Shown: piece by piece, positions 3,055-35,767 of the stretch | Layout: each line of letters opens with the position of its first letter | Position numbering within the stretch: position 1 is the stretch's first letter | Source of the DNA: Prochlorococcus sp. AG-402-A21 | GTDB taxonomy: Bacteria; Cyanobacteriota; Cyanobacteriia; PCC-6307; Cyanobiaceae | Reading direction: 5' to 3' | Assembly (NCBI GenBank): GCA_003279655.1 | Contig: QCHI01000014.1 | Coordinates: forward strand, 1 to 35,767 | DNA: 35,767 nucleotides | Made by a program: the position numbers and the translations under genes | Notes under the pieces: generated by a model | Database searches by the model: none | What the model was told of the DNA's origin: nothing | Seen by the model: the letters and a program-made list of their open reading frames with translations, nothing else

Positions 3055-5394
3055 TTGAGTGGTTTCGGGAAAAAGGGAAAAGAGAATAAAGGCTCTTCTA
3101 AAAAACTCCAAAAGCTTTCAGAAAAGGATCTGAAAGCAATATCAATCAGTAATCATATAAAAGGTAATTTAGATGAAGCAGAAAAAGGATATATAGCTTT
3201 TTTAAAGAATGGGTATTCTGATGCAGATATAATTTCGAATTATGCACTAATATGTGAAGAAAAAGAAGAAAATGATAAAGCGATAAAACTATATCAAAAA
3301 TGTTCTAAAAGTTTCCCAAATCATATTTACTCAAAATTAAATTTATCTTTTTTATATTATAAATTAAATAATTTCATAAAAGCAGAAACAATAATTGAAG
3401 AAGCAATTAAGTTAAAACCAAGTTTACCTAATGGATATTGTATTAGAGGATTAATTTTAAAAAGTCTAAACAAATATGATGAGTCAAAATTATCACTAGA
3501 AAAAGCAATCGAACTAGATAAAAATTACTTTGATGCGTATATCAATCTAGGGTTATTAAATAAAGATTTTAATAAATATAATGAAGCAGAGAAATATTAC
3601 TTAAAAGCTTTAGAAATAAATAATAAATCTGCTATTGCTCATTTAAATCTAGGTGCATGCTATAAAGAGAAACAAGAGATAGAAAAATCAATATTACATA
3701 CAGAAATAGCAATAGAGCTAGATAATAAATTAGAAAGCTGCTATTTAAATCTAGCTTCATTATACAACCAAATTGGTGATTACAAGAAATCACTAATGCT
3801 TACAAAAAAAGAACTTTTGTTTAATAGAAATAGCGAGTTAAGTTATCAACTTATAAGTGAATTAATTAAAAAAGGAGAATTATTAAACACATCAGAGAAA
3901 GATAATAGAGAATTACTTAAAAGTATATTAAATAGAAAAGATATTTCTCATAGAGAACTATTTTGGAATATAAATAGCCTGATCTCCAAAGAAATATTAG
4001 AAAAATTATCTATTATAAAATCAGAGTTGCATGAGAGTAATGAATTTAAGATTCTTATTAAGGATAAGGAATTAGTAAAAGCTCTTTCACTACTAATATT
4101 CTGCTCTCCTTTATGGGAAAAAGTTTTAGGAAATTTACGGAAAAATATTCTCATGAGCTTTTCGTATAATGAGAAGGTAAGTAATAGTATTTTTAATTTT
4201 ACAATAGGTCTTGGATCACAATGTTTCTTAAATGAGTATGTCTATTACATATCCAAAGAAGAAAAAATTAAACTACAAGAACTCTTGAAAACAATAAATG
4301 ATAATAAAAATAAGGACTATAAATTAGCTTTAATATCATGTTACCAATCTCTATCTTCAATAAACAACGAAATAATTAATTTAAATACTTATGTATCAAA
4401 TAACAAAGAATTAAATAATCTAATTAATCTACAACTCAAAGAGTTAAATGATGAAAAAAAGATTTCAAAAGAAATTAAAAAGATAGGAGATATAAAAGAT
4501 TCTATATCTAAGGAGGTAAAAAATCAATATGAATCAAACCCATACCCTAGATGGAGATATAATTCATATACTAAAGAAAACAAATTAAACTTTTTTTCAG
4601 TTATTAATTCAGAAATATATCCAAGTGAAATTACATCTAATTCAGCTCAATTAAAAAGCGGAAAAATAAATATACTTATAGCTGGTTGTGGAACAGGGAT
4701 TCAAATAATTGAAGCATCTCGATATAGTAATTGTGAAATAACAGCAATAGATTTAAGTAATTCAAGTATATCATATGCAAAGAGAAAGGCTGATGAGTAT
4801 GGATTGAAAAATATTAATTTTATAGAAATGGATTTACTTGAATTGAGCTCACTAAATCAAAGATTTGATTTAATAGAATGTTCTGGTGTTCTCCACCATA
4901 TGAATGATCCAACTAAAGGGTTATCAAATCTATTTGATGTATTAGAACCAAAAGGTTTTTTAAAGTTAGGTTTGTACAGTAAGTATGCACGAGAAAAAAT
5001 ACGAAAAGCTAGAGATCTAATCAAAGAAAAAGATTTTAAACCAGATGTTGATGGAATCAGAAGCTTCCGAAATAACGTTCTTAATGGAGAGATAAAACAG
5101 TTAAATGAAATAACTAATTGGTCAGATTTCTACTCAACATCAATGTGTAGAGATCTATGCTTTCATAGTCACGAAAAATGTTACTCGTTAATTGAAATTA
5201 AAGAGATGTTAAAAGTATTTAATCTGGAATTCCTAGGTTTTACTCTTTCAAAAGATATAAAAGATAAATATCAGATAGCTCACAAAGATATAGACTCTTT
5301 AAAAGATTTAGATTTATGGGATAAATTTGAGAAATCAAATCCTAATTCATTTAGAGAAATGTATCAATTCTGGTCTAGGAAATCAATTAAATAG
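3055..5394 (+). CDS. TPR array fused to a class I SAM-dependent methyltransferase
   Basis: A 779-aa two-part protein. Residues about 35-260 form about six to seven tetratricopeptide repeats (for example YINLGLLNKDFNKYNEAEKYY). A divergent helical linker follows. A Rossmann-type methyltransferase domain covers about residues 500-660, with motif I AGCGTG at about 541-547, an acidic motif II (ITAIDLS, about 563-569), and FDLIECSGVLHHM before the sheet end. NPYPRWRY just before the domain is a feature I associate with picocyanobacterial TPR methyltransferases. Translation starts at TTG 3055, because MSGFGKKGK resembles the usual start of such proteins. Substrate is unknown; TPRs probably recruit a protein partner. 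It is related in style to the TPR proteins near 28-36 kb. Confidence 0.85.
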   Translation: MSGFGKKGKENKGSSKKLQKLSEKDLKAISISNHIKGNLDEAEKGYIAFLKNGYSDADIISNYALICEEKEENDKAIKLYQKCSKSFPNHIYSKLNLSFLYYKLNNFIKAETIIEEAIKLKPSLPNGYCIRGLILKSLNKYDESKLSLEKAIELDKNYFDAYINLGLLNKDFNKYNEAEKYYLKALEINNKSAIAHLNLGACYKEKQEIEKSILHTEIAIELDNKLESCYLNLASLYNQIGDYKKSLMLTKKELLFNRNSELSYQLISELIKKGELLNTSEKDNRELLKSILNRKDISHRELFWNINSLISKEILEKLSIIKSELHESNEFKILIKDKELVKALSLLIFCSPLWEKVLGNLRKNILMSFSYNEKVSNSIFNFTIGLGSQCFLNEYVYYISKEEKIKLQELLKTINDNKNKDYKLALISCYQSLSSINNEIINLNTYVSNNKELNNLINLQLKELNDEKKISKEIKKIGDIKDSISKEVKNQYESNPYPRWRYNSYTKENKLNFFSVINSEIYPSEITSNSAQLKSGKINILIAGCGTGIQIIEASRYSNCEITAIDLSNSSISYAKRKADEYGLKNINFIEMDLLELSSLNQRFDLIECSGVLHHMNDPTKGLSNLFDVLEPKGFLKLGLYSKYAREKIRKARDLIKEKDFKPDVDGIRSFRNNVLNGEIKQLNEITNWSDFYSTSMCRDLCFHSHEKCYSLIEIKEMLKVFNLEFLGFTLSKDIKDKYQIAHKDIDSLKDLDLWDKFEKSNPNSFREMYQFWSRKSIK

Positions 5395-5550: not shown

Positions 5551-5648
5551 TGGATATTAATGTTTAATTACTAATAGCTTACATTGGGACTTCCTTATTG
5601 GCTACATAAAAACCAAGATTTAAAGTAAAAAGATTCTATTAATATCTT

Positions 5649-9584: not shown

Positions 9585-11423
9585 TTAAAATCTTTCAGGT
9601 CTAGGATCTTTCCACGTAGAAATAACACCCTCTCTTTTCAAAAATCTGGCTCGTCTTTCAAGAGTTTCTCTATCAAGTCTCCAAACGCTATATACCCCAA
9701 AATCACCTAAGACTTGTGGATTAAGTCCTTGCCAATAAGATTTTTTAACTGAAATTTTATCAATAAGTAAAAGAGTAGTTTCTGAGCCATTGGATCCATA
9801 TATTGGCCTTCCTTTCCAGCCTCTTCGCTGCTCATTTTTAAGTCGATCTGAAACATTTACAAACGCATTTTTGGATCTGCCTTCAAAAACTATGACCTCA
9901 TTAGTATAAAAATGAATTGAGGGTTTCATAGCTCCTACCATTACTAAAGGCTCGTTTCTTTTTTGAGAATCTAAAAGTAATTCTGAGGCTAGTCTTAAGG
10001 GAAGCTGTCTTAACCTATCTGCCAAATCAAAAGTTGGTAACACAATCAGAAAATGGGATAAAAATATAGGGATTTGTAAAATCAATAGTTTTCCATATAT
10101 TTTTCTAGAGGAAAATATGATTCCTAGAACAGCAATTAAAAGAAAAATAAAGCCAGCTTTTTCAATTAAAAAGCTATTGGTTAATTCTTCTGAGAAATTA
10201 GGAATCTCAGGATCATTAAGAAACTGAATCCATAACTTCGAATAGAAGAGAAATAAAGCAAAGAGTATTGACAAAAATATTGTAAATTTCCAAGCTAAAG
10301 ATTTTAAAAATTCATCTTTAACATTACTGGTTAAAGAAAGTGCTATTAAAACTGATGCCGCAGGAGTAGCAGGAAGCCAATAGCTTGGAAGCTTTGTAGC
10401 TGAAATAGTAAAGAAGACAAATACAGCGATAAACCAGAAAAATGAAAACTCAAATAACGACTTTTCTGGTTTTTTAATAACCCTTCTAGACAATTTAGAA
10501 ATATTGCAAAGATTCGTCCAAATACTTATAAATAAAAATGGCGTAAAAGGTAAAGAAGCTATACATAATACTATTAAAAAAAACCACCAAGGCTCTCCAT
10601 GGGAATTTACGACTGAGGTGAACCTTTGAAGATTATGATATCCAAAAAAACTATCTAAGAATGGTTTTCCCTCTATTAATAGTTCAATTAAGTACCAAGG
10701 GAAACTAATAATAAAAACAATAAAAAGTCCTGGTATCACCCTAAATGTTTGTAAAATTCCAAGAAGATTATTTTGAAAAAAGGCAAAAAATAAAATTGTT
10801 AATGCTGATAAAACCAAGGCAACAGGACCTTTAGTTAAAACTGCTAATGACAAAAAAATCCAAGACAACCACCAAACTTCTCCTTCAGGATTAGCGAATC
10901 TTCTCCATTTAAGAAGTAAGCAAATTCCTAGAGTGCTGCATAGGAGTGCATCACTTACAGCAATTCTTCCCCAAATTATTACCAAAGGCGACAACGCAAA
11001 TACCAGTGCAGTAAGAACTGCTGTTCTTCTATTGAAATTATTTTCTTCTTGGGGATATTTCATCATTGTGTCCCCTAAAACAAGCATTAAAAAAATTATC
11101 GATAATGCAGAAGGAAGTCTGGCAGCCCAGGTTCCTAAAGGATCCCAAGAAATATTCCCTGGGATTGAAAATCCCAGTCCCATTAACCAATAAACCAAAG
11201 GGGGCTTATCAAAACGAGGTAATCCATTTACTTGTGGAGTCAACCAATTACCTGTTTCTGCCATTGCTCTACTGGCTGCCGCAAACAAAGGTGGTGTTTC
11301 ATCAACTAAACCTGTTGCCCCTAATTGCCAAACAAATAATATTAACCCAATAAATAAGATACAAAAAAGCCCACGTCTTCTTTGTTTAAAAGTTGGAGAA
11401 AAAGAGTTCGTTAAACTTTTCAA
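9585..11423 (-). CDS. GT-C family (GT39/ArnT-like) membrane glycosyltransferase
   Basis: A 612-aa protein with about 11-12 membrane helices and a C-terminal soluble tail. The first external loop carries DETPPLFAAASRAMAETGNW and GLPRFDKPPLVYWLMGL, the hallmark of protein mannosyltransferase/ArnT-like enzymes that use a polyprenyl-phosphate sugar. The Asp in DETPP is the expected catalytic position. Translation starts with TTG at 11423, directly after the TAA of the upstream GT4 gene, with no gap. Together the pair probably builds or decorates a cell-surface glycan or lipid; the sugar and acceptor are unknown. Confidence 0.88.
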   Translation of the reverse strand: MKSLTNSFSPTFKQRRRGLFCILFIGLILFVWQLGATGLVDETPPLFAAASRAMAETGNWLTPQVNGLPRFDKPPLVYWLMGLGFSIPGNISWDPLGTWAARLPSALSIIFLMLVLGDTMMKYPQEENNFNRRTAVLTALVFALSPLVIIWGRIAVSDALLCSTLGICLLLKWRRFANPEGEVWWLSWIFLSLAVLTKGPVALVLSALTILFFAFFQNNLLGILQTFRVIPGLFIVFIISFPWYLIELLIEGKPFLDSFFGYHNLQRFTSVVNSHGEPWWFFLIVLCIASLPFTPFLFISIWTNLCNISKLSRRVIKKPEKSLFEFSFFWFIAVFVFFTISATKLPSYWLPATPAASVLIALSLTSNVKDEFLKSLAWKFTIFLSILFALFLFYSKLWIQFLNDPEIPNFSEELTNSFLIEKAGFIFLLIAVLGIIFSSRKIYGKLLILQIPIFLSHFLIVLPTFDLADRLRQLPLRLASELLLDSQKRNEPLVMVGAMKPSIHFYTNEVIVFEGRSKNAFVNVSDRLKNEQRRGWKGRPIYGSNGSETTLLLIDKISVKKSYWQGLNPQVLGDFGVYSVWRLDRETLERRARFLKREGVISTWKDPRPERF

Positions 11424-15450: not shown

Positions 15451-15588
15451 ATGACAAAAAGAACTTTTGGAGGAACTAGTAGAAAAAGGAAAAGAGTTTC
15501 TGGCTTCAGGGTGAGGATGAGATCTCATACTGGAAGAAGAGTTGTAAGAACTCGTAGGAAGCGCGGAAGAGCTCGTTTAACTGTCTAA
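15451..15588 (+). CDS. rpmH: 50S ribosomal protein L34
   Basis: A 45-aa, very basic protein: [19 protein letters not shown], then [20 protein letters not shown] and LTV. This is full-length L34 with its invariant TKRTFGGT start. It heads the classic rpmH-rnpA-yidC order and probably shares a transcript with rnpA, 44 bases downstream. Confidence 0.98.
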
Positions 15589-15632
15589 AAAAGGCTTTCA
15601 AATAAAGATACTTACAACAAAAGTTTCTACTG

Positions 15633-27706: not shown

Positions 27707-27803
<97 letters not shown>

Positions 27804-27917: not shown

Positions 27918-28055
27918 ATGGCCGATAGGATTGAACTTAATCCTGATTTCGCTAATGCTCATTGCAATCTGGGAAACACATTGAGAGACTTTGGCAAATT
28001 AAAAGAAGCAGAAGTATCACTGAACCAGACAGTTCGTTTGGAAAGCAAGCTCTGA
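27918..28055 (+). pseudogene. TPR gene fragment (45 codons)
   Basis: ATG 27918 to TGA 28053-28055 encodes MADRIELNPDFANAHCNLGN followed by TLRDFGKLKEAEVSL and a short tail. That is one complete TPR motif, close in sequence to repeats of the gene that starts 50 bases later. AAGGAAATG offers a ribosome-binding site, so it may be translated, but a single TPR repeat is most simply a leftover of a rearranged TPR gene. Confidence 0.6.
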
Positions 28056-28104: not shown

Positions 28105-30186
28105 TTGGAAGCCAAGTTAGAAATAGCTAAAACGCTCTTCAAGCAAAATAAATATCAAGAAACAATCGATACCTGTAATCAAATATTAGCTACTGATAGA
28201 AATTCAATAGAAGCTATAAAATTAATCGCCAAATCTTTTTTAGCAACAAGAAAGATAGAAGATGCTCATTTATATTTGAATAAAGCACTAACTCTTAAAC
28301 CTGATGATTTGGAATCAATTAAAGATCTAGGAAATACCTTTCAAGCTGAAGGGGATATTAATAATACAAAAAAATATTACCAAAAAGCTCTAGAAATCAA
28401 CAATTCTTATGCTCCCGCATTAACGAACCTTGGAAGCATTGAATTGGCAACAGGTAATAAACAAGAAGGATTATCATTGCTCATCAAAGCGACGGAATGT
28501 GCCCCTCGATACGCTCCTGCTTGGGGGAACCTTGCTAATTGTTATTTTCAACTAGGAAATATAAACGGTGCTGAAATTGCTTGCCGCAAAGCAATAGAAC
28601 TTAACCCCAATCTTTTTAACTTTCATTTCCTTCTTGGAAAAATCCTTCTTAGGCAAAAGAAACCACAAGAAGCAGAACTACCTTTTCTCAAAACCATTGA
28701 ACTTAATCCTGACTTCTTTCAGGCTCATCTCAATCTTGGGGCAGTTTTAAAAGATCTTGGACAACTAAAAGAAGCAGAAGTATCTGTTCGCAAATCAATA
28801 GCGCTCAATCCCAATTTCCTCAACTCTCATTTCCTTCTCGGAATAATCCTCCTTGAGCAAAAAAAACCTCAAGAGGCAGAACAATCTTTTCGCAAAGCGA
28901 TTGAAATTAATCCTGATTTAGCAGAGGCGCATTACAACCTGGGAATCATATTGAGCGGTTTTGGCAAATTAAAAGAAGCAGAATTATTCACTCGCAAAGC
29001 AATTGCAATTAAACCTAATTTCGCTGAAGCACATCTAAATCTGGGAAATATATTGATAGGTTTTGGTAAATCGCAAGACGCAGAATTATCCACTCGCAAA
29101 GCAATTGCAATTAAACCTAATTTCGCTGAAGCACATCTAAGTCTGGGAAATATATTGAAAGGTTTTGGCAAATTAAAAAAAGCAGAATTATCCACTCGCA
29201 AAGCAATTGAAATTAGACCTGATTACGCAGAGGCTCATTACAATCTGGGAATCATATTAAAAGATCTTAGTATTAGCAATGGTAAAGAAGCAATCATCCA
29301 TTGGACAAAGGCAGTTGAATTAAAACCTCATGAGGATAAATTTGTTATGGAGTTAACCCGATATTTATTTCATCTACAAAAATATGAGTTAGCATTAAAA
29401 TATCTAAGAAAAAATAACTCTAATACTAGTCAAAGCTTACTCCTAGGCTGTTTATTTTCTCTTAATAGAGAAAAAGATTTCAATGAGAAGTACAAAGAAC
29501 TTTCTGAGAACAAGCCATGTAATGCCGATATTGGAGGTATCGTGGAGCATGCCAATATTATTTACGAAAAGAAATACAAATCACCTTTCTGTGATGAAGC
29601 GATTAAGTATATATTAATAGAGAAAATTAATGAAAAATCGTTCTCAGAAAATCACTTAAATGAACTAATTTCTTACAATAGAACAAGTAAAAAAGAACCT
29701 AGAGAAGGTTTTGTCATGAATGGAATACAAACTTCAGGTAATTTATTTTCATTAGACTATCCATTTATTAAAGCAATGAAAAAGGCTTTAGAGGAGAAGA
29801 TCGAAATTTACAAAAATAAATTTAAAGATAGTGGGCAAGGTTTCATTGATAATTGGCCTGAAAAATATGAACTTAATTCATGGATCATTAGCATGAATAG
29901 TGGAGGTTTTGTCGCTCCACATAATCATGAATATGGATGGATTACTGGTAGTTTTTACCTCCAAATTCCAAAATATAATGATAATCATAATGATTCAGGT
30001 AACATAGCCTTTAGCTATCAAGGCCCTAGATATCCGTTTAAAAATAAGGATTTTAATTTAACTATTAAGAAAATAGAAACCAGAGATATTTGTATATTCC
30101 CTTCTTCTTTATTCCACCATACTATCCCGTTTGAAAGTACAGAAGAGCGGATATGCTTTGTTTTTGACTTAGTACAAAAAAATTAA
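28105..30186 (+). CDS. TPR array with C-terminal 2OG-Fe(II) oxygenase-like domain
   Basis: A 693-aa protein starting at TTG 28105. About 12 tetratricopeptide repeats of 34 residues fill residues 1-410, many with the consensus AEAHxNLGxIL...LKEAE. Residues about 440-530 are helical. Residues about 535-690 resemble the 2OG-Fe(II) oxygenase family (PF13759 as I recall): APHNHEYGWITGSFYLQIP with His606 and His608 as likely metal ligands, and ICIFPSSLFHHTIPF with His671 or His672 as the distal ligand, then Arg682 for oxoglutarate. It would hydroxylate a substrate held by the TPR arm. Substrate unknown. First complete gene of the island. Confidence 0.88.
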   Translation: MEAKLEIAKTLFKQNKYQETIDTCNQILATDRNSIEAIKLIAKSFLATRKIEDAHLYLNKALTLKPDDLESIKDLGNTFQAEGDINNTKKYYQKALEINNSYAPALTNLGSIELATGNKQEGLSLLIKATECAPRYAPAWGNLANCYFQLGNINGAEIACRKAIELNPNLFNFHFLLGKILLRQKKPQEAELPFLKTIELNPDFFQAHLNLGAVLKDLGQLKEAEVSVRKSIALNPNFLNSHFLLGIILLEQKKPQEAEQSFRKAIEINPDLAEAHYNLGIILSGFGKLKEAELFTRKAIAIKPNFAEAHLNLGNILIGFGKSQDAELSTRKAIAIKPNFAEAHLSLGNILKGFGKLKKAELSTRKAIEIRPDYAEAHYNLGIILKDLSISNGKEAIIHWTKAVELKPHEDKFVMELTRYLFHLQKYELALKYLRKNNSNTSQSLLLGCLFSLNREKDFNEKYKELSENKPCNADIGGIVEHANIIYEKKYKSPFCDEAIKYILIEKINEKSFSENHLNELISYNRTSKKEPREGFVMNGIQTSGNLFSLDYPFIKAMKKALEEKIEIYKNKFKDSGQGFIDNWPEKYELNSWIISMNSGGFVAPHNHEYGWITGSFYLQIPKYNDNHNDSGNIAFSYQGPRYPFKNKDFNLTIKKIETRDICIFPSSLFHHTIPFESTEERICFVFDLVQKN
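28965..29234 (+). repeat. 102-base tandem repeats inside the TPR array
   Basis: Successive TPR units are nearly identical in DNA, not only in protein. A 50-base block (starting CACTCGCAAAGCAATTGCAA) at 28989-29038 recurs without change at 29091-29140, exactly 102 bases (34 codons) apart, with a third, less exact copy at about 29193. This points to recent unequal crossover or slippage. Confidence 0.85.
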
Positions 30187-30430
30187 TATTCAATTTTCTT
30201 ATTATAATTATTCAATCTAATAAATCTCTCTATAAGAATTACATACCAAAAGACAATTAATAGTCAAAAAATGAAATCCATTTCTCCCAACAACACACGA
30301 GTTAATTAATATGAATCCAATTTAACCACTCTATTTATTCATATCAGTAGCTTTAAGCGAGTATGAACTCGTCTGAATCCGTCTTCATCTCAAGAAAAAC
30401 GGAGAGGAAGTAATTCCACTAAGAACTACT

Positions 30431-30540
30431 GCATGGCACGCCATGGCTCTATATGGCTAAATATTGCTATTATGCGAACAGTTCTGCGAACGCAAACTTA
30501 AGATGGCGACTTATTGGGAAGCAAATCTGCGAACACTTAT
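30431..30540 (+). repeat. Degenerate block shared with 35033-35150 (copy 1)
   Basis: Shared words in order include GCATGG, CATGGCT, GCTAAATATTGCTA, ATATGCG-type repeats, then TGGGAAGCAAATCTG and ACACTTATAAAAAT. The 3' part can be read as WEANLRTLIKI against WYENLSTILKN in the other copy, so it may descend from a coding segment. Confidence 0.5.
30473..30491. repeat. Paired TGCGAAC words, 12-base spacing
   Basis: TGCGAAC at 30473 and 30485, with a further single copy at 30528. Confidence 0.45.
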
Positions 30541-30677
30541 AAAAATTAGGTAGTAAGTCTTCAAAAAGTGGGGGGCCACCTAAGACACTTTCCTGTCCCA
30601 CTACTAAATATGCAGTGGTGCAATTCCTTTTAAGCGGTTGTGAGTATTGGATTCAGATATTAAAAAGTAGGAAAAAA

Positions 30678-30695
30678 GCGCATAAATGTGCGCAT
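30678..30695. repeat. Paired GCGCAT words, 12-base spacing
   Basis: GCGCAT at 30678 and 30690, in the context AAAAAAGCGCATAAATGTG. It lies about 100 bases upstream of the TPR gene at 30793. Confidence 0.5.
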
Positions 30696-30792
30696 ATTGC
30701 CGTAAAACGCTTAAGGCATAATGTATCTGAACTAATTACTTCTTTTTTCATGGAGATCGACTACTGATTACGTTGAATAGGATCAATTTATT

Positions 30793-32448
30793 TTGAGAGT
30801 CAAAACTATAGTGAAAGGTATAATTCTCATTAATAGATCCTTTGCGAAACAAATAAAAGTGACTAAGGGGAAAAGAAATCAGAAACAGACAGAAACTGAA
30901 GTAACAACATTCTCAGTGCCATTTACTTTAGGAGAAATCAAAGAAAATATTACTGTTAACACCAATGCTCCTTCTAAACTTTCTAAAGAACAAATAATTA
31001 ATCAAGCATTTAAATTTCATTCACAAGGAAACATTTCAGAAGCCACAAAATATTATCAACAGATAATAAATCAAGGTTTCAATGATTATAGGGTTTTTAG
31101 TAATTATGGAGCAATTTTAAAACAGATAGGCAAATTAGAAGAGGCAGAATTAACAACTCGCAAAGCAATTAAATTAAATCCTACTTTAGCAGAGTCTTAT
31201 AATAATCTTGGACTCATATTGAAAGACCTTGAAAACTTGCAAGAAGCAGAATCCTCCACTCGTAAGGCTATAGAGTTAAGACCTGATTTTGCAAATGCAT
31301 ATTCAAATTTAGGACTTATATTGAAAGACCTTGGAAACTTGCAAGAAGCAGAATCCTCCACTCGTAAAGCTTTAGAATTAAATCCTAATTTTGTAGAAGC
31401 TCATAATAATTTGGGAGCTATTCTAAAAGATCTAAATAACTTAAAAGAAGCAGAAAAACATCTTCTAAAAGCTATTGAAATTAGACCTGAATTCGCAGAA
31501 GCCTATAATAATTTGGGCAATTTAATGGAGGATCTTGATAATTTAGAAAAGGCTGAAATTTATTATAATAAGGCAATACATCTAAGATCAGACTTTAAAG
31601 ATGCATTAAAAAATAGATGGCAATTATTGTTTAATAAAAAAGAATTTAACAAAGCTTTAAAAACTGCAGATTTATGCAACACGAAAGAATCAAAAGTTCT
31701 TGCTTTGGAAACTCTATTTGCATTGGGAAGAATTGATGAAATTTATGATCGAATTGCTGAAATGTCTCAGATGGAAGACGAAAATATATACTTGGCGGCA
31801 TTTGCTTCATTTATTTCTTATAAGGAAAAAAGAGATAATTTACATAATTTTTGCCAAAGCCCACTTTCATTTTTAAAGGTTTCAAATTTAAAATCATATC
31901 GCAATGATTATGTCCAATTTATAAATGAAATAATTAAAGAACTTTATAATACAAAAACCGTTTGGCAACCTCTTAATAAAGCTACTCGGAATGGATTTCA
32001 AACACCAAGTTATATAAATCTGTTTTCTAAATCTCCAAAATATATCTCACAGCTAAAGTCAATTATTTTAGAGGAACTAGATGAATATTATTCAAAATAT
32101 AAAAAAGAATCTTGCTCTTATATTCAAAAATGGCCCTCAAAAAGGAATTTGACAGCGTGGCATGTAATTCTTAAAAAGCAAGGATATCAAAGTGCTCACA
32201 TACATCCTGCTGGTTGGTTAAGTGGAGTGATTTATTTAAAAGTTGTTCCCCCTCTGAATCAGAATGAAGGTGCAATTGAATTTAGTTTGAATGGAGAGCA
32301 TTATTCCAGTGTTGATTCTCCTCAATTAATTCATCAACCAGAAGTAGGAGATATCGTTTTCTTCCCTTCTTCTCTTTACCACAGAACCATCCCTTTTTCG
32401 ACAGATACAGATCGTATAGTCATCGCTTTTGACTTGAAGCCAGATTAA
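30793..32448 (+). CDS. Second TPR protein with C-terminal 2OG-Fe(II) oxygenase-like domain
   Basis: Up to 551 aa from TTG 30793. GTG codons at 30814 and 30859 are alternative starts; the latter gives MTKGKRNQKQTETEVTTFSV. After a leader ending FSVPFTLGEIKENI come about seven TPR repeats (residues about 68-300; AESYNNLGLILKDLENLQEA). The C-terminal domain (about 395-551) has AHIHPAGWLSGVIYLKVV with His469/His471, then DIVFFPSSLYHRTIPFSTDT with His530, and an Arg in TDRIVIAFDL. This is the same oxygenase-like domain as the gene at 28105, with a different TPR array. It probably modifies a partner bound by the repeats. Confidence 0.88.
   Translation: MRVKTIVKGIILINRSFAKQIKVTKGKRNQKQTETEVTTFSVPFTLGEIKENITVNTNAPSKLSKEQIINQAFKFHSQGNISEATKYYQQIINQGFNDYRVFSNYGAILKQIGKLEEAELTTRKAIKLNPTLAESYNNLGLILKDLENLQEAESSTRKAIELRPDFANAYSNLGLILKDLGNLQEAESSTRKALELNPNFVEAHNNLGAILKDLNNLKEAEKHLLKAIEIRPEFAEAYNNLGNLMEDLDNLEKAEIYYNKAIHLRSDFKDALKNRWQLLFNKKEFNKALKTADLCNTKESKVLALETLFALGRIDEIYDRIAEMSQMEDENIYLAAFASFISYKEKRDNLHNFCQSPLSFLKVSNLKSYRNDYVQFINEIIKELYNTKTVWQPLNKATRNGFQTPSYINLFSKSPKYISQLKSIILEELDEYYSKYKKESCSYIQKWPSKRNLTAWHVILKKQGYQSAHIHPAGWLSGVIYLKVVPPLNQNEGAIEFSLNGEHYSSVDSPQLIHQPEVGDIVFFPSSLYHRTIPFSTDTDRIVIAFDLKPD
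31219..31367 (+). repeat. 102-base tandem repeat inside the second TPR array
   Basis: A 47-base block beginning TTGAAAGACCTT at 31219-31265 recurs at 31321-31367 with one substitution. Spacing is again 102 bases, one TPR unit. Confidence 0.85.
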
Positions 32449-32467
32449 ATTACTAGATTTTTCTAAC

Positions 32468-32812
32468 TCAATGGTTATACGAGGAATCAGCAAATAATCT
32501 AGTCAGTGAAATTATTTGTCTTGCACATGCAGCAACACCACTTGTTTGATTATTAATAAGTCCTTGTTGCATACCTTGTTCGAGATTCACGAGTAGTTTT
32601 GCAACCATTTGCGGCCGCTAAATATTGATCTCTTCAAAATCTTGAACAATTAAGTCCATTGCATTGGCTTTCATTCTTCGAGCTTACCTTCTGCTTATTT
32701 CATATTCTTCGGTCACTCAGGTCGTTAATACCGTGCAACTATGACCTTGAGCAAGTAAGTCAGCAGCAAAACCTGCTCTTAGTTCCATCTCTTGTTTATT
32801 AGTTTTTTTCAT
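32468..32812 (-). pseudogene. HTH-like protein gene with three in-frame stop codons
   Basis: From ATG 32812 one minus-strand frame runs 115 codons to TGA 32468-32470 with no frameshift, but contains TGA (32717-32719), TAA (32684-32686) and TAG (32618-32620). It reads MKKTNKQEMELRAGFAADLL, stop after TVLTT, then VTEEYEISRR-stop-ARRMKANAMDLIVQDF, then EEINI-stop-RPQMVAKLLVNLEQGMQQGL and on through GVAACARQIISLTRLF. YEISRRxARR looks like the recognition region of a helix-turn-helix, as in small terminase-like proteins. Its ATG overlaps the 3' end of the 80-aa gene, so they were once an operon. Confidence 0.8.
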
Positions 32813-33041
32813 ATTCCAGCTCTAAGCAATGTAGATTTAATTCCCTCTGAAGCATGTGCAAACACAATGCCAACTCAGGAACCAAAGAAAGCATTAGATC
32901 CCAATCTTGATTATTTTCTATTGTTGAGAAGGCGGAAGTCATTGCTTCTGCGACAGTTAAAAAATCAGAGTGAATGACTTTAGTCATTTGAGATTTTCTA
33001 GGCGTTGCTATTTGGCGTGAACTTATAAATTTATCAATCAT
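32799..33041 (-). CDS. 80-aa hypothetical island protein
   Basis: A soluble protein starting MIDKFISSRQIATPRKSQMT, then HSDFLTVAEAMTSAFSTIEN and LSLVPELALCLHMLQREL. Mostly helical, acidic C-terminal half. No family is recognised. A second, damaged copy lies at 34532-34659 with several synonymous differences, evidence that this frame has been a real gene. Its last codons overlap the ATG of the downstream pseudogene. The overlapping plus-strand frame at 32792-32977 is a shadow. Confidence 0.7.
   Translation of the reverse strand: MIDKFISSRQIATPRKSQMTKVIHSDFLTVAEAMTSAFSTIENNQDWDLMLSLVPELALCLHMLQRELNLHCLELEYEKN
32915..33041 (-). repeat. Direct repeat copy 1 flanking the DUF2079 gene
   Basis: The 5' part of the 80-aa gene, about 126 bases, repeated at 34532-34659 with about ten substitutions and one indel. 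The pair brackets the DUF2079 gene. Confidence 0.8.
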
Positions 33042-33102
33042 ATAAGCAAATAAATATTTGTTTTATGCTACAAAGACTATATAGAATCAATAGAATAACT
33101 AG

Positions 33103-34512
33103 TTGGTTTTGAGAACGTTTTTTAGACAATCTGCAGATCGTGAAATCAAAGTTCAAATACCTTTCTTATTACTATTCATAAGCCTATCTATATCTATAAT
33201 TTTTTTCCTTTTTTCAACTACTAGACATAAACTTTTTCAAAGTAGTTATGATCTAACCCTTTTTGATCAGTGGTTGTGGTTGATAAGTAGAGATTTTGAT
33301 CCAATTTCATCGATAACTAATTGGCATGTACTTTCTGACCATGCTGCTTGGGCTTTATATCTTTTTGCTCCTCTTTATAAGATATACGCCAGTATAAATT
33401 GGTTGTTTTTTTCTCAGGCAATTTGTTTATCCTTCACTTCAATTCCTATTTGGATTTTATCAATTAATTCAGGTATTAATTATAGAAATACATGGATAAT
33501 CTGTTTAATATGGTGGATGCAACCGGTAGTCTTCAATGTAAATATAAATGACTTTCATCCTGAAGTTTGGGCCATGCCAGCTTTAATTGGATCATATTTA
33601 TTTAGTAGACATAATAAATTCCTTCTTTGGTTATTATGTTTAATATTTATGATTGGCTGCAGAGATGGAATGGTATTAATAGCCTTTGGTATTTTTATAG
33701 AAAACATGATAAGAAAAAAATGGAAATATGCTTTCTCTTCTCTTACAATTAGTCTAGGTTGGTTGTTCTTTATAAAGACTATATTATTTCCCTATTTAGC
33801 AAGCATAAATAATTATGATGTCCTTAAAACTCCTTCATCTGGAGTGATTTCAAAATATGTAGACTCATTATTTGATCCTCTTCAATTGTTTTCTAATGTT
33901 AATTACATTAGCGGATTTGAATATCTGATTTTAATAAGTATTGCCTTCCTTCCGTTTTGGAGGATAAATTCATTAGTAACTCTAACAGCAGGATTCCCCT
34001 TGGTTTTTCTTAACTTTATTGCTGAGAATCAATCCATGAGAATGCTTATACATCAATATAGTTTACCTCTAGCTGCTATTGGAGTTGTTGCTGTTATTGA
34101 TTCTTTTTCGATCAACTTTTCTTTGAAAATATCTTGGAAATATATAACTTGGATTTCAATTTGTTGGTTTAGTCTAGCTAAACCATATTTTTATACAGGT
34201 CCCTATTTATCAAGACTATCATTGATAAAGTCTATAAATCAAGCCTTATTATTGATACCTTCAGATGCGAAAGTGTTGACAACGAGTTATATTGCTCCAC
34301 ATTTAAGTCATCGAAAAAAAATTGATTTTCCTAAAACGCTTAATGTAAAAAATTATTTGAAAGAGAATGATTTCTTATTGTTAAATCCTAAGGATCCAGG
34401 ATGGGGCTCTACGAGTAATATTCAGCAATCAATTTTGGATCAGGCTAATAGAAATGACTGGACATGTAATTCATACCCAAATAATTTGGAATTATGCAAG
34501 AAGCAAAATTAA
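33103..34512 (+). CDS. DUF2079 multi-span membrane protein
   Basis: A 469-aa protein from TTG 33103 with about ten membrane helices. The first helix (FLLLFISLSISIIFFLF, about 22-38) is followed by the family's exported loop: YDLTLFDQWLWLISRDFDP and WHVLSDHAAWALYLFAPLYK. NDFHPEVWAMPALIGSYLFS is another strong DUF2079 sequence. The C-terminal soluble part (from about 395) contains LSHRKKIDFPKTL. These proteins look like GT-C fold membrane glycosyltransferases, but activity is not established. It sits between two direct repeats, suggesting arrival as a unit. Confidence 0.88.
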   Translation: MVLRTFFRQSADREIKVQIPFLLLFISLSISIIFFLFSTTRHKLFQSSYDLTLFDQWLWLISRDFDPISSITNWHVLSDHAAWALYLFAPLYKIYASINWLFFSQAICLSFTSIPIWILSINSGINYRNTWIICLIWWMQPVVFNVNINDFHPEVWAMPALIGSYLFSRHNKFLLWLLCLIFMIGCRDGMVLIAFGIFIENMIRKKWKYAFSSLTISLGWLFFIKTILFPYLASINNYDVLKTPSSGVISKYVDSLFDPLQLFSNVNYISGFEYLILISIAFLPFWRINSLVTLTAGFPLVFLNFIAENQSMRMLIHQYSLPLAAIGVVAVIDSFSINFSLKISWKYITWISICWFSLAKPYFYTGPYLSRLSLIKSINQALLLIPSDAKVLTTSYIAPHLSHRKKIDFPKTLNVKNYLKENDFLLLNPKDPGWGSTSNIQQSILDQANRNDWTCNSYPNNLELCKKQN

Positions 34513-34531
34513 GGAACTGATTTTAAATTAA

Positions 34532-34659
34532 TTTCTATTGTCGAAAAAGCGGAAGTCATTGCTTCTGCGACAGTTAAAAAATCAGAGTGAATGCCTTTAG
34601 TCATTTGAGATTTTCTAGGAGCTGCTAGTTGGCGTGAAGGTATAAATCTGATCAACCAT
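34532..34659 (-). pseudogene. Truncated, frameshifted copy of the 80-aa gene
   Basis: Minus-strand copy of the first about 43 codons of the gene at 33041. One extra base near codon 4 (GATCAGATT against GATAAATT) shifts the frame, and homology stops after STIE, where it runs into the end of the DUF2079 gene. Differences in the shared region include GCC/GCT, TTC/TTT and TCA/TCG, all synonymous. An internal ATG at 34604 could still give MTKGIHSDFLTVAEAMTSAF plus 11 residues. Confidence 0.8.
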
Positions 34660-34755
34660 ATTGGCATACAGAGGAATAACAAAAGTAGCTTAAAACGATA
34701 GTGATTTCAATTTATAATGACCTCTTACCTTTTTTGGTATTTATGATTTGGGCTG

Positions 34756-34777
34756 CCCTTGAGGGCTCTTTTTTTGT
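34756..34777 (+). terminator. Weak hairpin plus T run
   Basis: GCCC-TTGA-GGGC followed after CT by seven T. The stem is only four GC pairs long. It may terminate transcripts reading out of the DUF2079 gene. Confidence 0.4.
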
Positions 34778-34853
34778 ATAAAGAAATAAGAAATAAAATG
34801 GTAAAATATAGCTATAAAATGAATAGTCTTAATTAATCTTGCTATGGATAAAG

Positions 34854-34872
34854 TGCGCACATTGGTGCGCAT
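34854..34872. repeat. Paired TGCGCAC/TGCGCAT words, 12-base spacing
   Basis: TGCGCAC at 34854 and TGCGCAT at 34866; GTGCGCAC is itself a palindrome. It lies about 60 bases before the tRNA remnant. Confidence 0.5.
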
Positions 34873-34929
34873 GACTTTTTAATACTTAGCCTTAAACCCA
34901 GTTATACCAATGATTAGCAAGAGATTTTC

Positions 34930-35000
34930 AACTGTCTTCTAACCAGTGGGTCGCTAGTTCGAATCCAGCAGGGAGCGTACTCAAACTCAATTGATACCAA
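34930..35000 (+). repeat. Degenerate tRNA-Arg 3' half (attachment-site remnant, copy 2)
   Basis: AACTGTCTTCTAACCAGTGG and GTTCGAATCCAGCAGGGAGC correspond to the anticodon arm, T-arm and acceptor 3' strand of tRNA-Arg(TCT), and the match continues about 23 bases past the tRNA end (TACTCAAA...TGATACCAA). The 5' half is absent and stem positions are mutated, so it is not a functional tRNA. Confidence 0.8.
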
Positions 35001-35032
35001 GCGATTACAGTAAATACACGAAGAGTTAATGC

Positions 35033-35150
35033 ATAGCTGGCTATGGCTAGACATGACTAAATATTGCTAATATGCGCACACGTACGCACGCTGAAACCAT
35101 TGCTGGCACAAAATGAAAGCTAAGTGGTATGAAAATCTGAGCACAATTTT
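35033..35150 (+). repeat. Degenerate block shared with 30431-30540 (copy 2)
   Basis: It has CTAAATATTGCTAATATGCG and later TGGTATGAAAATCTGAGCAC, matching the earlier block in order. A frame from ATG 35114 reads MKAKWYENLSTILKNAEKEI then KRNRALK before a stop that overlaps the start region of the next TPR gene. TGCGCAC (35073) and TACGCAC (35083) are spaced 10 bases here. Confidence 0.5.
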
Positions 35151-35192
35151 AAAAAATGCAGAAAAAGAAATTAAACGCAATCGGGCTCTGAA

Positions 35193-35767
35193 GTGAAAAC
35201 ATTCTCAGTTCCATTTGCTTTCAATGAAATAGTAGAAAATATTACTATCAACACTTTAGATCCTTCTAAAACTTCCAAAGAGCAAATAATTAAGCAAGCA
35301 TTTAAATTCCATTCAGAAGGCAACATTGTAGAAGCAACAAAATATTATCAACTTTTTATTAATCAAGGATTTAATGATCATAGAGTTTTTACGAATTATG
35401 GAAACATATTGAGCGATCTTGGTAAATTAAAAGAAGCAGAATCATTCTATCGAAAAGCAATTAAAATCAATCCTGATTATATAATTGCTCATTATAATCT
35501 TGCAAATGTATTTATAAATCTTGGGGAATTAGAAGAAGCAGAATTATCCACAAGAAAAGCAATTAAAATCAATCCTAATTTCGCAGAGGCTCATTTAAAT
35601 CTGGGAACCATATTGAATGATCTTGGTAAATCAAAAGAAGCAGAAATATCCACGAGAAAAGCAATTAAAATAAAACCTGCTTACGCTGAGGCTCATTCAA
35701 ACCTGGGGAACATATTGAACGATCTTGAAAATTTAAAACAAGCAGAAATCTCATACAGACAAGCTAT
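35193..35767 (+). CDS. Third TPR protein, runs off the window
   Basis: The open frame has at least 191 codons from GTG 35193 with no stop before the window edge. MKTFSVPFAFNEIVENITIN matches the leader of the TPR gene at 30793 (TTFSVPFTLGEIKENI). About four TPR repeats follow (YNLANVFINLGELEEAELST; HLNLGTILNDLGKSKEAEIS). In this frame a TAA at 35172 blocks any longer N-terminus, whereas the homologue has more residues there, so the 5' end may be damaged. By analogy the missing C-terminus would be an oxygenase-like domain, but this is not visible. Confidence 0.8.
   Translation, partial: MKTFSVPFAFNEIVENITINTLDPSKTSKEQIIKQAFKFHSEGNIVEATKYYQLFINQGFNDHRVFTNYGNILSDLGKLKEAESFYRKAIKINPDYIIAHYNLANVFINLGELEEAELSTRKAIKINPNFAEAHLNLGTILNDLGKSKEAEISTRKAIKIKPAYAEAHSNLGNILNDLENLKQAEISYRQA

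Follow-up and report, generated by a model that had tools for sequence, protein, structure and literature searches.

The question raised by contig QCHI01000014.1 of Prochlorococcus sp. AG-402-A21, analysed here in its entirety (35,767 nucleotides, hereafter the window; the genome comprises 1.67 Mb in 41 contigs), is what two neighbouring genes that join different arrays of tetratricopeptide repeats (TPRs) to a 2-oxoglutarate (2OG) oxygenase domain are part of. An earlier note had read them as adaptors that bring different partners to a single type of oxygenase, within a candidate undescribed modification system. The observation itself is confirmed, and the reading is partly supported and too narrow. 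One of the two genes begins with an N-terminal leader that is widespread in the genus, and 17 groups of C-terminal payloads occur behind this leader and TPR array, the oxygenase domain PF13759 accounting for 18 of 212; the proteins are therefore not adaptors for one oxygenase type. The leader-TPR-payload architecture and the shuffling of its parts are, in our assessment, virtually certain.

All features of the window located below lie on its plus strand. Gene 28105 (28105..30186, 693 amino acids) and gene 30793 are complete in the list of open reading frames (ORFs), as the earlier note stated, and Pfam places PF13759 behind a TPR array in each (29875..30168 and 32155..32433; E 6.8e-24 and 2.1e-21; 84.6 and 76.6 bits, the cut-off being 27). 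The listed ORF of gene 30793 starts at TTG 30793; sibling comparison makes the GTG at 30859 the more likely start codon, which gives a protein of 529 residues (30859..32448). The two genes end in the same domain insofar as both belong to PF13759, whereas the domains themselves are only 31% identical. The oxygenase is not undescribed but belongs to an already described family (PF13759; TIGR02466 of NCBIfam, matched below its cut-off; PHROG 81, '2OG-Fe(II) oxygenase', matched by both genes; solved relatives 3bvc and 2rg4). Four PF13759 matches occur in the genome, two in the window and one each on contigs C16 and C1. The window genes end in this oxygenase and not in a C-terminal GT-B glycosyltransferase, gene 30793 having no match to PF13844, the GT41 head. 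Gene 28105 has no leader; gene 30793 carries one of 70 residues (30907..31116), as found by profile match. The third gene, 35193 (35193..35765), recognised from the ORF list, Pfam and its similarity to gene 30793, consists of a leader (35199..35408) and TPRs and is cut by the contig end. It shares the leader of gene 30793, as had been claimed, with 65% identity over the first 136 residues from the leader. Its ORF begins right at the leader, and its start is uncertain because the basic N-terminal tail of its siblings is not in frame there. Leader sharing is not due to chance, since the N-terminus of gene 30793 matches the nearest other copy in the genome with an E value of 4.7e-57.

Profile search located 25 leader copies in the genome, comprising 15 with a grouped payload, two that end after the array and eight cut by contig ends (on C1, C2, C14, C16, C31, C35 and C39); because of such cuts, draft assemblies of the genus may under-count and break the family. 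Genus-wide, where details come from among the matches listed, the leader was found in 39 of 41 genomes. Three closed relatives (G004, G005 and G006) gave 45, 40 and 43 leader matches, and the family occupies 3.2–4.3% of their length (lower bounds, a few copies having been dropped). In G004, 147 of the 150 scored TPR_1 matches (of 359 candidates) fall in leader genes. A sample of the taxonomic family, with at most 29 candidates scored per genome, yielded a leader match at E 1e-5 in 55 of 201 genomes, ten of which are from the genus; the other 45 hold one to six matches each, and the leader expansion is thus a property of this genus. All 77 named loci found with the window leader, which derive from the best 80 of 181 stretches, carry the label Prochlorococcus. 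No relative was encoded by any of the 16 viral contig stretches that fit the leader pattern. Leader positions T1, F2, P5, Y50 and N66 hold one residue in 90–100% of copies, and conservation over the leader start is 90% at F2, 85% at V4, 94% at P5, 87% at L8 and 87% at N14. The ratio of nonsynonymous to synonymous differences (pN/pS) is 0.62 in the part predicted to be disordered and 0.38 in the helical part (4000 random pairs, uncorrected for saturation). A leader start that is predicted to be disordered yet is conserved suits a docking motif. A shared promoter was not apparent, the commonest upstream 12-mers occurring in just 16 of 124 upstream regions. No description of the leader-TPR family was found in the open-access literature, a weak negative because most subscription papers lie outside it.

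Payloads were compared across the window's own genome, the closed genomes and the named loci. There, 363 leader matches gave 289 with a 3' end and, after removal of identical 150-residue tails, 246 distinct sequences, 34 of which have fewer than 60 residues past the array and were left ungrouped. The remaining 212 payloads fall in 17 groups, a figure that is threshold-dependent because the clustering was by single-linkage BLAST; the groups were named from Pfam and NCBIfam scans of representatives. The largest are GT9-like (45 members), sulfotransferase (38), GT41 (27), methyltransferase (Methyltransf_31/25; 25) and PF13759 (18), and the GT41 head was confirmed in the siblings of group 2 (representative E 5.8e-71). 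SGNH-like proteins (12, by eye), TylF methyltransferases (12) and proteins with an HxD...H oxygenase-like motif (11, by eye) form the mid-size groups. These are followed by a group of seven without a known identity, five 2OG-FeII_Oxy_3-like proteins (below cut-off), four FkbM methyltransferases, two weakly XcbB/CpsF-like proteins, two PrmA/PRMT-like proteins and four singletons, so that the 17 groups include four of methyltransferases, three oxygenase-like ones and the four singletons. The number of TPRs per protein ranges from 0 to 16 and varies widely within every larger payload group; PF13759 members have two to eight each.

Leader and payload assort independently. Within closed genomes, leaders (those longer than 60 residues) are 59.4% identical between pairs of the same payload group and 58.2% between pairs of different groups, and this difference of 1.26 points was equalled or exceeded by 181 of 1000 label shuffles; co-inheritance of leader and payload was not seen. 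Four pairs have leaders that are 100% identical and payloads of different groups, and in one pair the payloads agree at 99.7% and the leaders at 53%. Exchange tracts were defined as DNA of at least 95% identity over at least 300 bp within the same genome; a comparison table with overlapping flanks of neighbouring genes was left out of the counts. The first scan gave 15 tracts (five leader-side, six array-to-payload, four payload only, none covering a whole gene). A further pair, masked by the removal of identical tails, added a payload-side tract of 99.94% identity over 1597 bp with different leaders. The 16 tracts thus comprise five leader-side, seven array-to-payload and four payload only, and 12 of them stop on one side within the TPR array; whole-gene duplication was rejected as their source, since none spans a whole gene. 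All five leader-side tracts end in the array and join different payload groups, stopping in at least one partner 60–80 nucleotides before the array end, in the last repeat, whereas the array-to-payload tracts all join the same group. In the clearest pair, G006 1377360 and 1379997, 1008 bp are identical from 5' of the start into the array, and the heads differ, one being a sulfotransferase and the other of group 8. Since these genes adjoin, tandem duplication followed by head replacement is equally possible for them; distant tract partners also exist, for example G006 763549 and 948656. The earlier description of a conserved catalytic end behind a variable array is thus half the picture, for among siblings the enzyme also changes while leader and array stay the same. 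Among the closed genomes the payloads are strain-specific: none of 40, 32 and 38 payloads has a counterpart of at least 90% identity in another closed genome (without a core-gene control), and two to four per comparison reach 80%. Leaderless 'silent cassettes' were also considered; 11 of 223 non-leader ORFs of the closed-genome islands have payload homology, and no cassette store is claimed because several of the 11 are cut or doubly listed copies.

The fold of the oxygenase chain was examined with AlphaFold2. The model of the 529-residue protein of gene 30793 (11 alignment rows) has a mean predicted local distance difference test score (pLDDT) of 81.6, and its residues 43–323 (30985..31827) form a run of TPR-like helices followed by strands. 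The top Foldseek matches of the whole chain are to the TPR domain of human OGT (29% identity, 282 columns), with further matches to SPINDLY and to AspH, the aspartyl/asparaginyl beta-hydroxylase, which combines TPRs with an oxygenase (~520 columns, E ~6e-12). The C-terminal 200 residues modelled alone (24 rows) reached a pLDDT of 90.9 and aligned with the solved structure 3bvc with a Z score of 19.0 and a root-mean-square deviation of 3.2 over 179 residues. Other solved 2OG oxygenases followed, namely 2rg4 (Z score 18.3), a bacterial P4H (17.1), OGFOD1 (17.1) and PHD2 (16.8). The head of gene 30793 is accordingly a double-stranded beta helix in the predicted structure, and the objection that such a helix might be lacking falls because the model matches solved 2OG oxygenases. 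By sequence only, gene 30793 finds 3bvc and 2rg4 at E 0.0051 and 0.0084, and gene 28105 has no match to a solved relative with E below 0.18. The H-x-H...H pattern described in the earlier note is borne out: H-x-H (residues 447–449, 32197..32205), a distal His (residue 508, 32380..32382) and an Arg show no variation across 11 full-length relatives, nor across 24 rows to which viral relatives also contribute. By analogy with known oxygenase structures, we take the three His to be the ligands of a putative metal site and the Arg to bind 2OG. Textbook 2OG oxygenases have HxD/E...H; the middle residue in the window heads is His, as in the viral relatives. When viral contigs were scanned for the oxygenase, the single window domain as query gave 0 of 8 and the alignment as query 52 of 144. 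On one viral contig (L201, IMGVR_UViG_3300028925_002687), a gene at 799-2727 encodes TPRs and PF13759 with 58% identity over 200 residues; a second oxygenase-like end follows its PF13759, and the adjoining ORF resembles peptide deformylase by eye.

The genes lie in an island bordered on the left by a tRNA-Arg gene (anticodon TCT, 27707..27780; ARAGORN and Rfam). A repeat search showed that a 72-nucleotide stretch of its 3' part and flank (27732..27803) recurs as a direct repeat at 34929..35000, a partial tRNA-Arg 3' end of 85% identity that lies 7.2 kb downstream of the tRNA gene, and which upholds the mobile setting proposed earlier; a 17-base guess at a tRNA end found no match. Between the tRNA gene and gene 28105 lies a stray TPR-coding remnant (27929..28017), at most 84% identical to the repeats of gene 28105. 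The DNA flanking tRNA-Arg is present in all seven relatives searched. In the 13 kb past the tRNA there are no leader genes in G003 and four in G001, and before the next gene common, by eye, to G003, G007 and G002 there is one in G007 and two in G002; in G004, G005 and G006 the leader clusters span tens of kb. G002, G005 and G006 carry partial tRNA-Arg copies at this locus, as does the island of G004, and other leader-bearing loci contain partial copies of tRNA-Ala, tRNA-Ser and tRNA-Phe. Besides 3' partial copies, G005 has 5'-half copies of tRNA-Ala (positions 1–43) between leader genes, at 5594-5635, 10197-10239 and 15547-15589 of locus L192 and at 4774-4732 of L193. In the window, a 121-nucleotide direct repeat (32910-33030 and 34527-34647, 92% identical), with only these two matches in its own genome, flanks a DUF2079 membrane-protein gene (33103-34512). 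Between the 72-nucleotide repeats, none of the three long genes that were scanned is a tyrosine recombinase, a negative that does not extend to two short ORFs on the minus strand or to the remainder of the islands. Outside the part of the window that the earlier note covered, a distant relative at 3055..5394 combines TPRs with a methyltransferase (Pfam; 29% identical to the leader-TPR query at E 5.3e-10) and is without the TFxVPF leader start. The neighbours of leader genes were sampled as 63 of 100 selected non-leader proteins from G004 and G006. Nucleotide-sugar enzymes lead among them (dTDP-glucose 4,6-dehydratase, GalE, LegB, RfbH, PseC/LegC-like transaminases, heptose epimerase, HldE, Kdo-8-P synthase and RmlA), and carbamoyltransferases also occur. 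PF00535 and PF00534 do not appear in the 25 commonest of the 67 neighbour Pfam families, which is suggestive only.

The best explanation of these findings, to which we assign a probability of about 0.5, is that the family consists of recombining tailoring enzymes in which an OGT-like TPR superhelix binds the acceptor, giving each strain a modification set of its own. One leader and one such superhelix would carry interchangeable C-terminal enzymes, gene 28105 having lost its leader or never had one. Homologous recombination between near-identical TPR DNA would let various leaders and arrays become linked to various payloads. The functional steps stand at roughly even odds. The proteins may act in the cytoplasm, where the TPR groove would, in the manner of the FlmG TPR domain, hold an acceptor polypeptide or scaffold, and the head, a prolyl-hydroxylase-like oxygenase in the window, would modify the acceptor or its glycan. 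The enzymes may thereby tailor products, protein or glycan, that the same islands help to make, and each strain would possess its own modifying enzymes, probably for surface structures. A more far-reaching form, a polymorphic modification system, is put forward tentatively. Here the constant leader would let dozens of enzymes dock on a single shared partner. The TPR array would have two roles, as a rod that binds the acceptor and as the joint for recombination, and strains would swap enzymatic heads to rebuild protein or glycan modifications much as polymorphic toxins swap toxic tips. Several points weigh against the tailoring explanation. Two members in the genome carry no payload, stopping where the array ends. 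The largest group bears its GT9 label only weakly (Pfam E 0.012, below cut-off; NCBIfam E 0.00078), and groups 5 (SGNH-like), 7 (HxD...H) and 8 have no convincing Pfam match. In the model of gene 30793, residues 1–38, which include the conserved leader start, are predicted to be disordered (pLDDT below 50), and against OGT and AspH the whole chain reaches TM-scores of just 0.3–0.4. An Asn is conserved in 95% of 1348 TPRs, and it is no proof of OGT-like peptide binding because a conserved Asn is common in TPRs generally. Recent tracts involve just 23 of 122 closed-genome genes (counted before the 16th pair), and the 63 neighbours scanned include psbA and DAHP synthase.

Other explanations draw on the same evidence. 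The nucleotide-sugar, heptose and Kdo genes of the islands, the sulfotransferase, methyltransferase and glycosyltransferase heads and the small group weakly resembling capsule proteins XcbB/CpsF (E 2e-5, below cut-off) would also be expected if the leader and TPRs docked enzymes on a shared complex that builds surface polysaccharide, the heads acting on glycan and never on proteins. This is the strongest competitor and is nevertheless unlikely, for 27 of the 212 heads are of the GT41 or O-GlcNAc-transferase type, whose known members act on proteins, and the oxygenase heads fit protein hydroxylases best by fold, a likeness that by itself shows no function. The adaptor reading of the earlier note draws on the two neighbouring genes, whose heads are of one family and whose arrays differ, and on the 18 PF13759 payloads with their differing TPR numbers. 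An oxygenase-only system is ruled out by the 194 of 212 payloads that are of other kinds, and different heads occur on identical leaders and arrays; contradicted for the family and very improbable as a general account, the adaptor reading could still hold for the oxygenase branch.

That the family is a neutral, recombining repeat in which the leader is a recombination footprint with no role would agree with exchange tracts that follow near-identical DNA and with the truncated copies and the stray TPR remnant. We give this little credence given the constancy of leader positions T1, F2, P5, Y50 and N66, the uncorrected pN/pS values and the share of small genomes that the family occupies. Least probable of all is an anti-phage defence system, which the variability of the islands might suggest. 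PADLOC, run on ten proteins, returned TPR/PrimPol stretches, one generic 2OG model (E 2.5e-6) and one mad2 methyltransferase stretch (E 3.9e-16); these matches fall only in TPR, 2OG or methyltransferase stretches, and five of the ten proteins have none.

Small, streamlined genomes are what Prochlorococcus is known for, yet in three closed ones of the genus this single family takes up several percent of the length. If the chassis of leader and TPRs reads proteins, it would be a natural toolkit for placing unrelated modifying enzymes on one targeting unit, and strain-to-strain surface variation would be directly testable. TPR domains were described as over-represented in low-light Prochlorococcus, with a proposed role in photosystem II assembly (PMC11357015, excerpt), and TPR proteins were named among the abundant rare gene clusters (PMC7779031, excerpt); our results, from strains other than those surveyed, suggest that the excess described in the former excerpt could largely consist of modular tailoring enzymes.

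Compared with known systems, the family shares each of its parts with something familiar. Stand-alone PF13759/TIGR02466 oxygenases, with 3bvc and 2rg4 as the nearest solved structures, have the same catalytic domain. Elsewhere in the taxonomic family the listed PF13759 frames mostly span 200–370 residues, too short for a long array, whereas here the domain ends a leader-TPR chain; PF13759 has also been treated in giant viruses (PMC10598087, excerpt). AspH likewise places TPRs before a 2OG oxygenase in one chain and differs in its low TM-score and in PF05118, which is absent from all 22 Pfam families of gene 30793 and from the best 25 of the 27 of gene 28105; no leader family or exchange is known for AspH. 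OGT and SPINDLY (GT41) have the closest TPR superhelix, and their head itself occurs in 27 siblings, while the head of most siblings is another enzyme. Polymorphic toxin systems also combine a constant N-terminus with an exchangeable C-terminal domain, but the heads of the present family are tailoring enzymes. In FlmG of Caulobacter, the TPR domain binds flagellin and chooses the protein substrate and the C-terminal domain resembles GT-B enzymes (PMC7591256, excerpt); this flagellin glycosyltransferase, as described there, has the same layout of TPRs and a modifying C-terminal domain. It is one enzyme with one head, whereas the leader-TPR family exchanges heads. Tycheposons are tRNA-targeted islands with cargo bordered by tRNA (PMC10872708, excerpt), and the window cargo is likewise bordered by a duplicated tRNA 3' end, although the scan of the three long genes revealed no recombinase. 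The modules are thus of known kinds, and what sets the family apart is the leader held in common, how many heads there are and the exchange within the TPR arrays.

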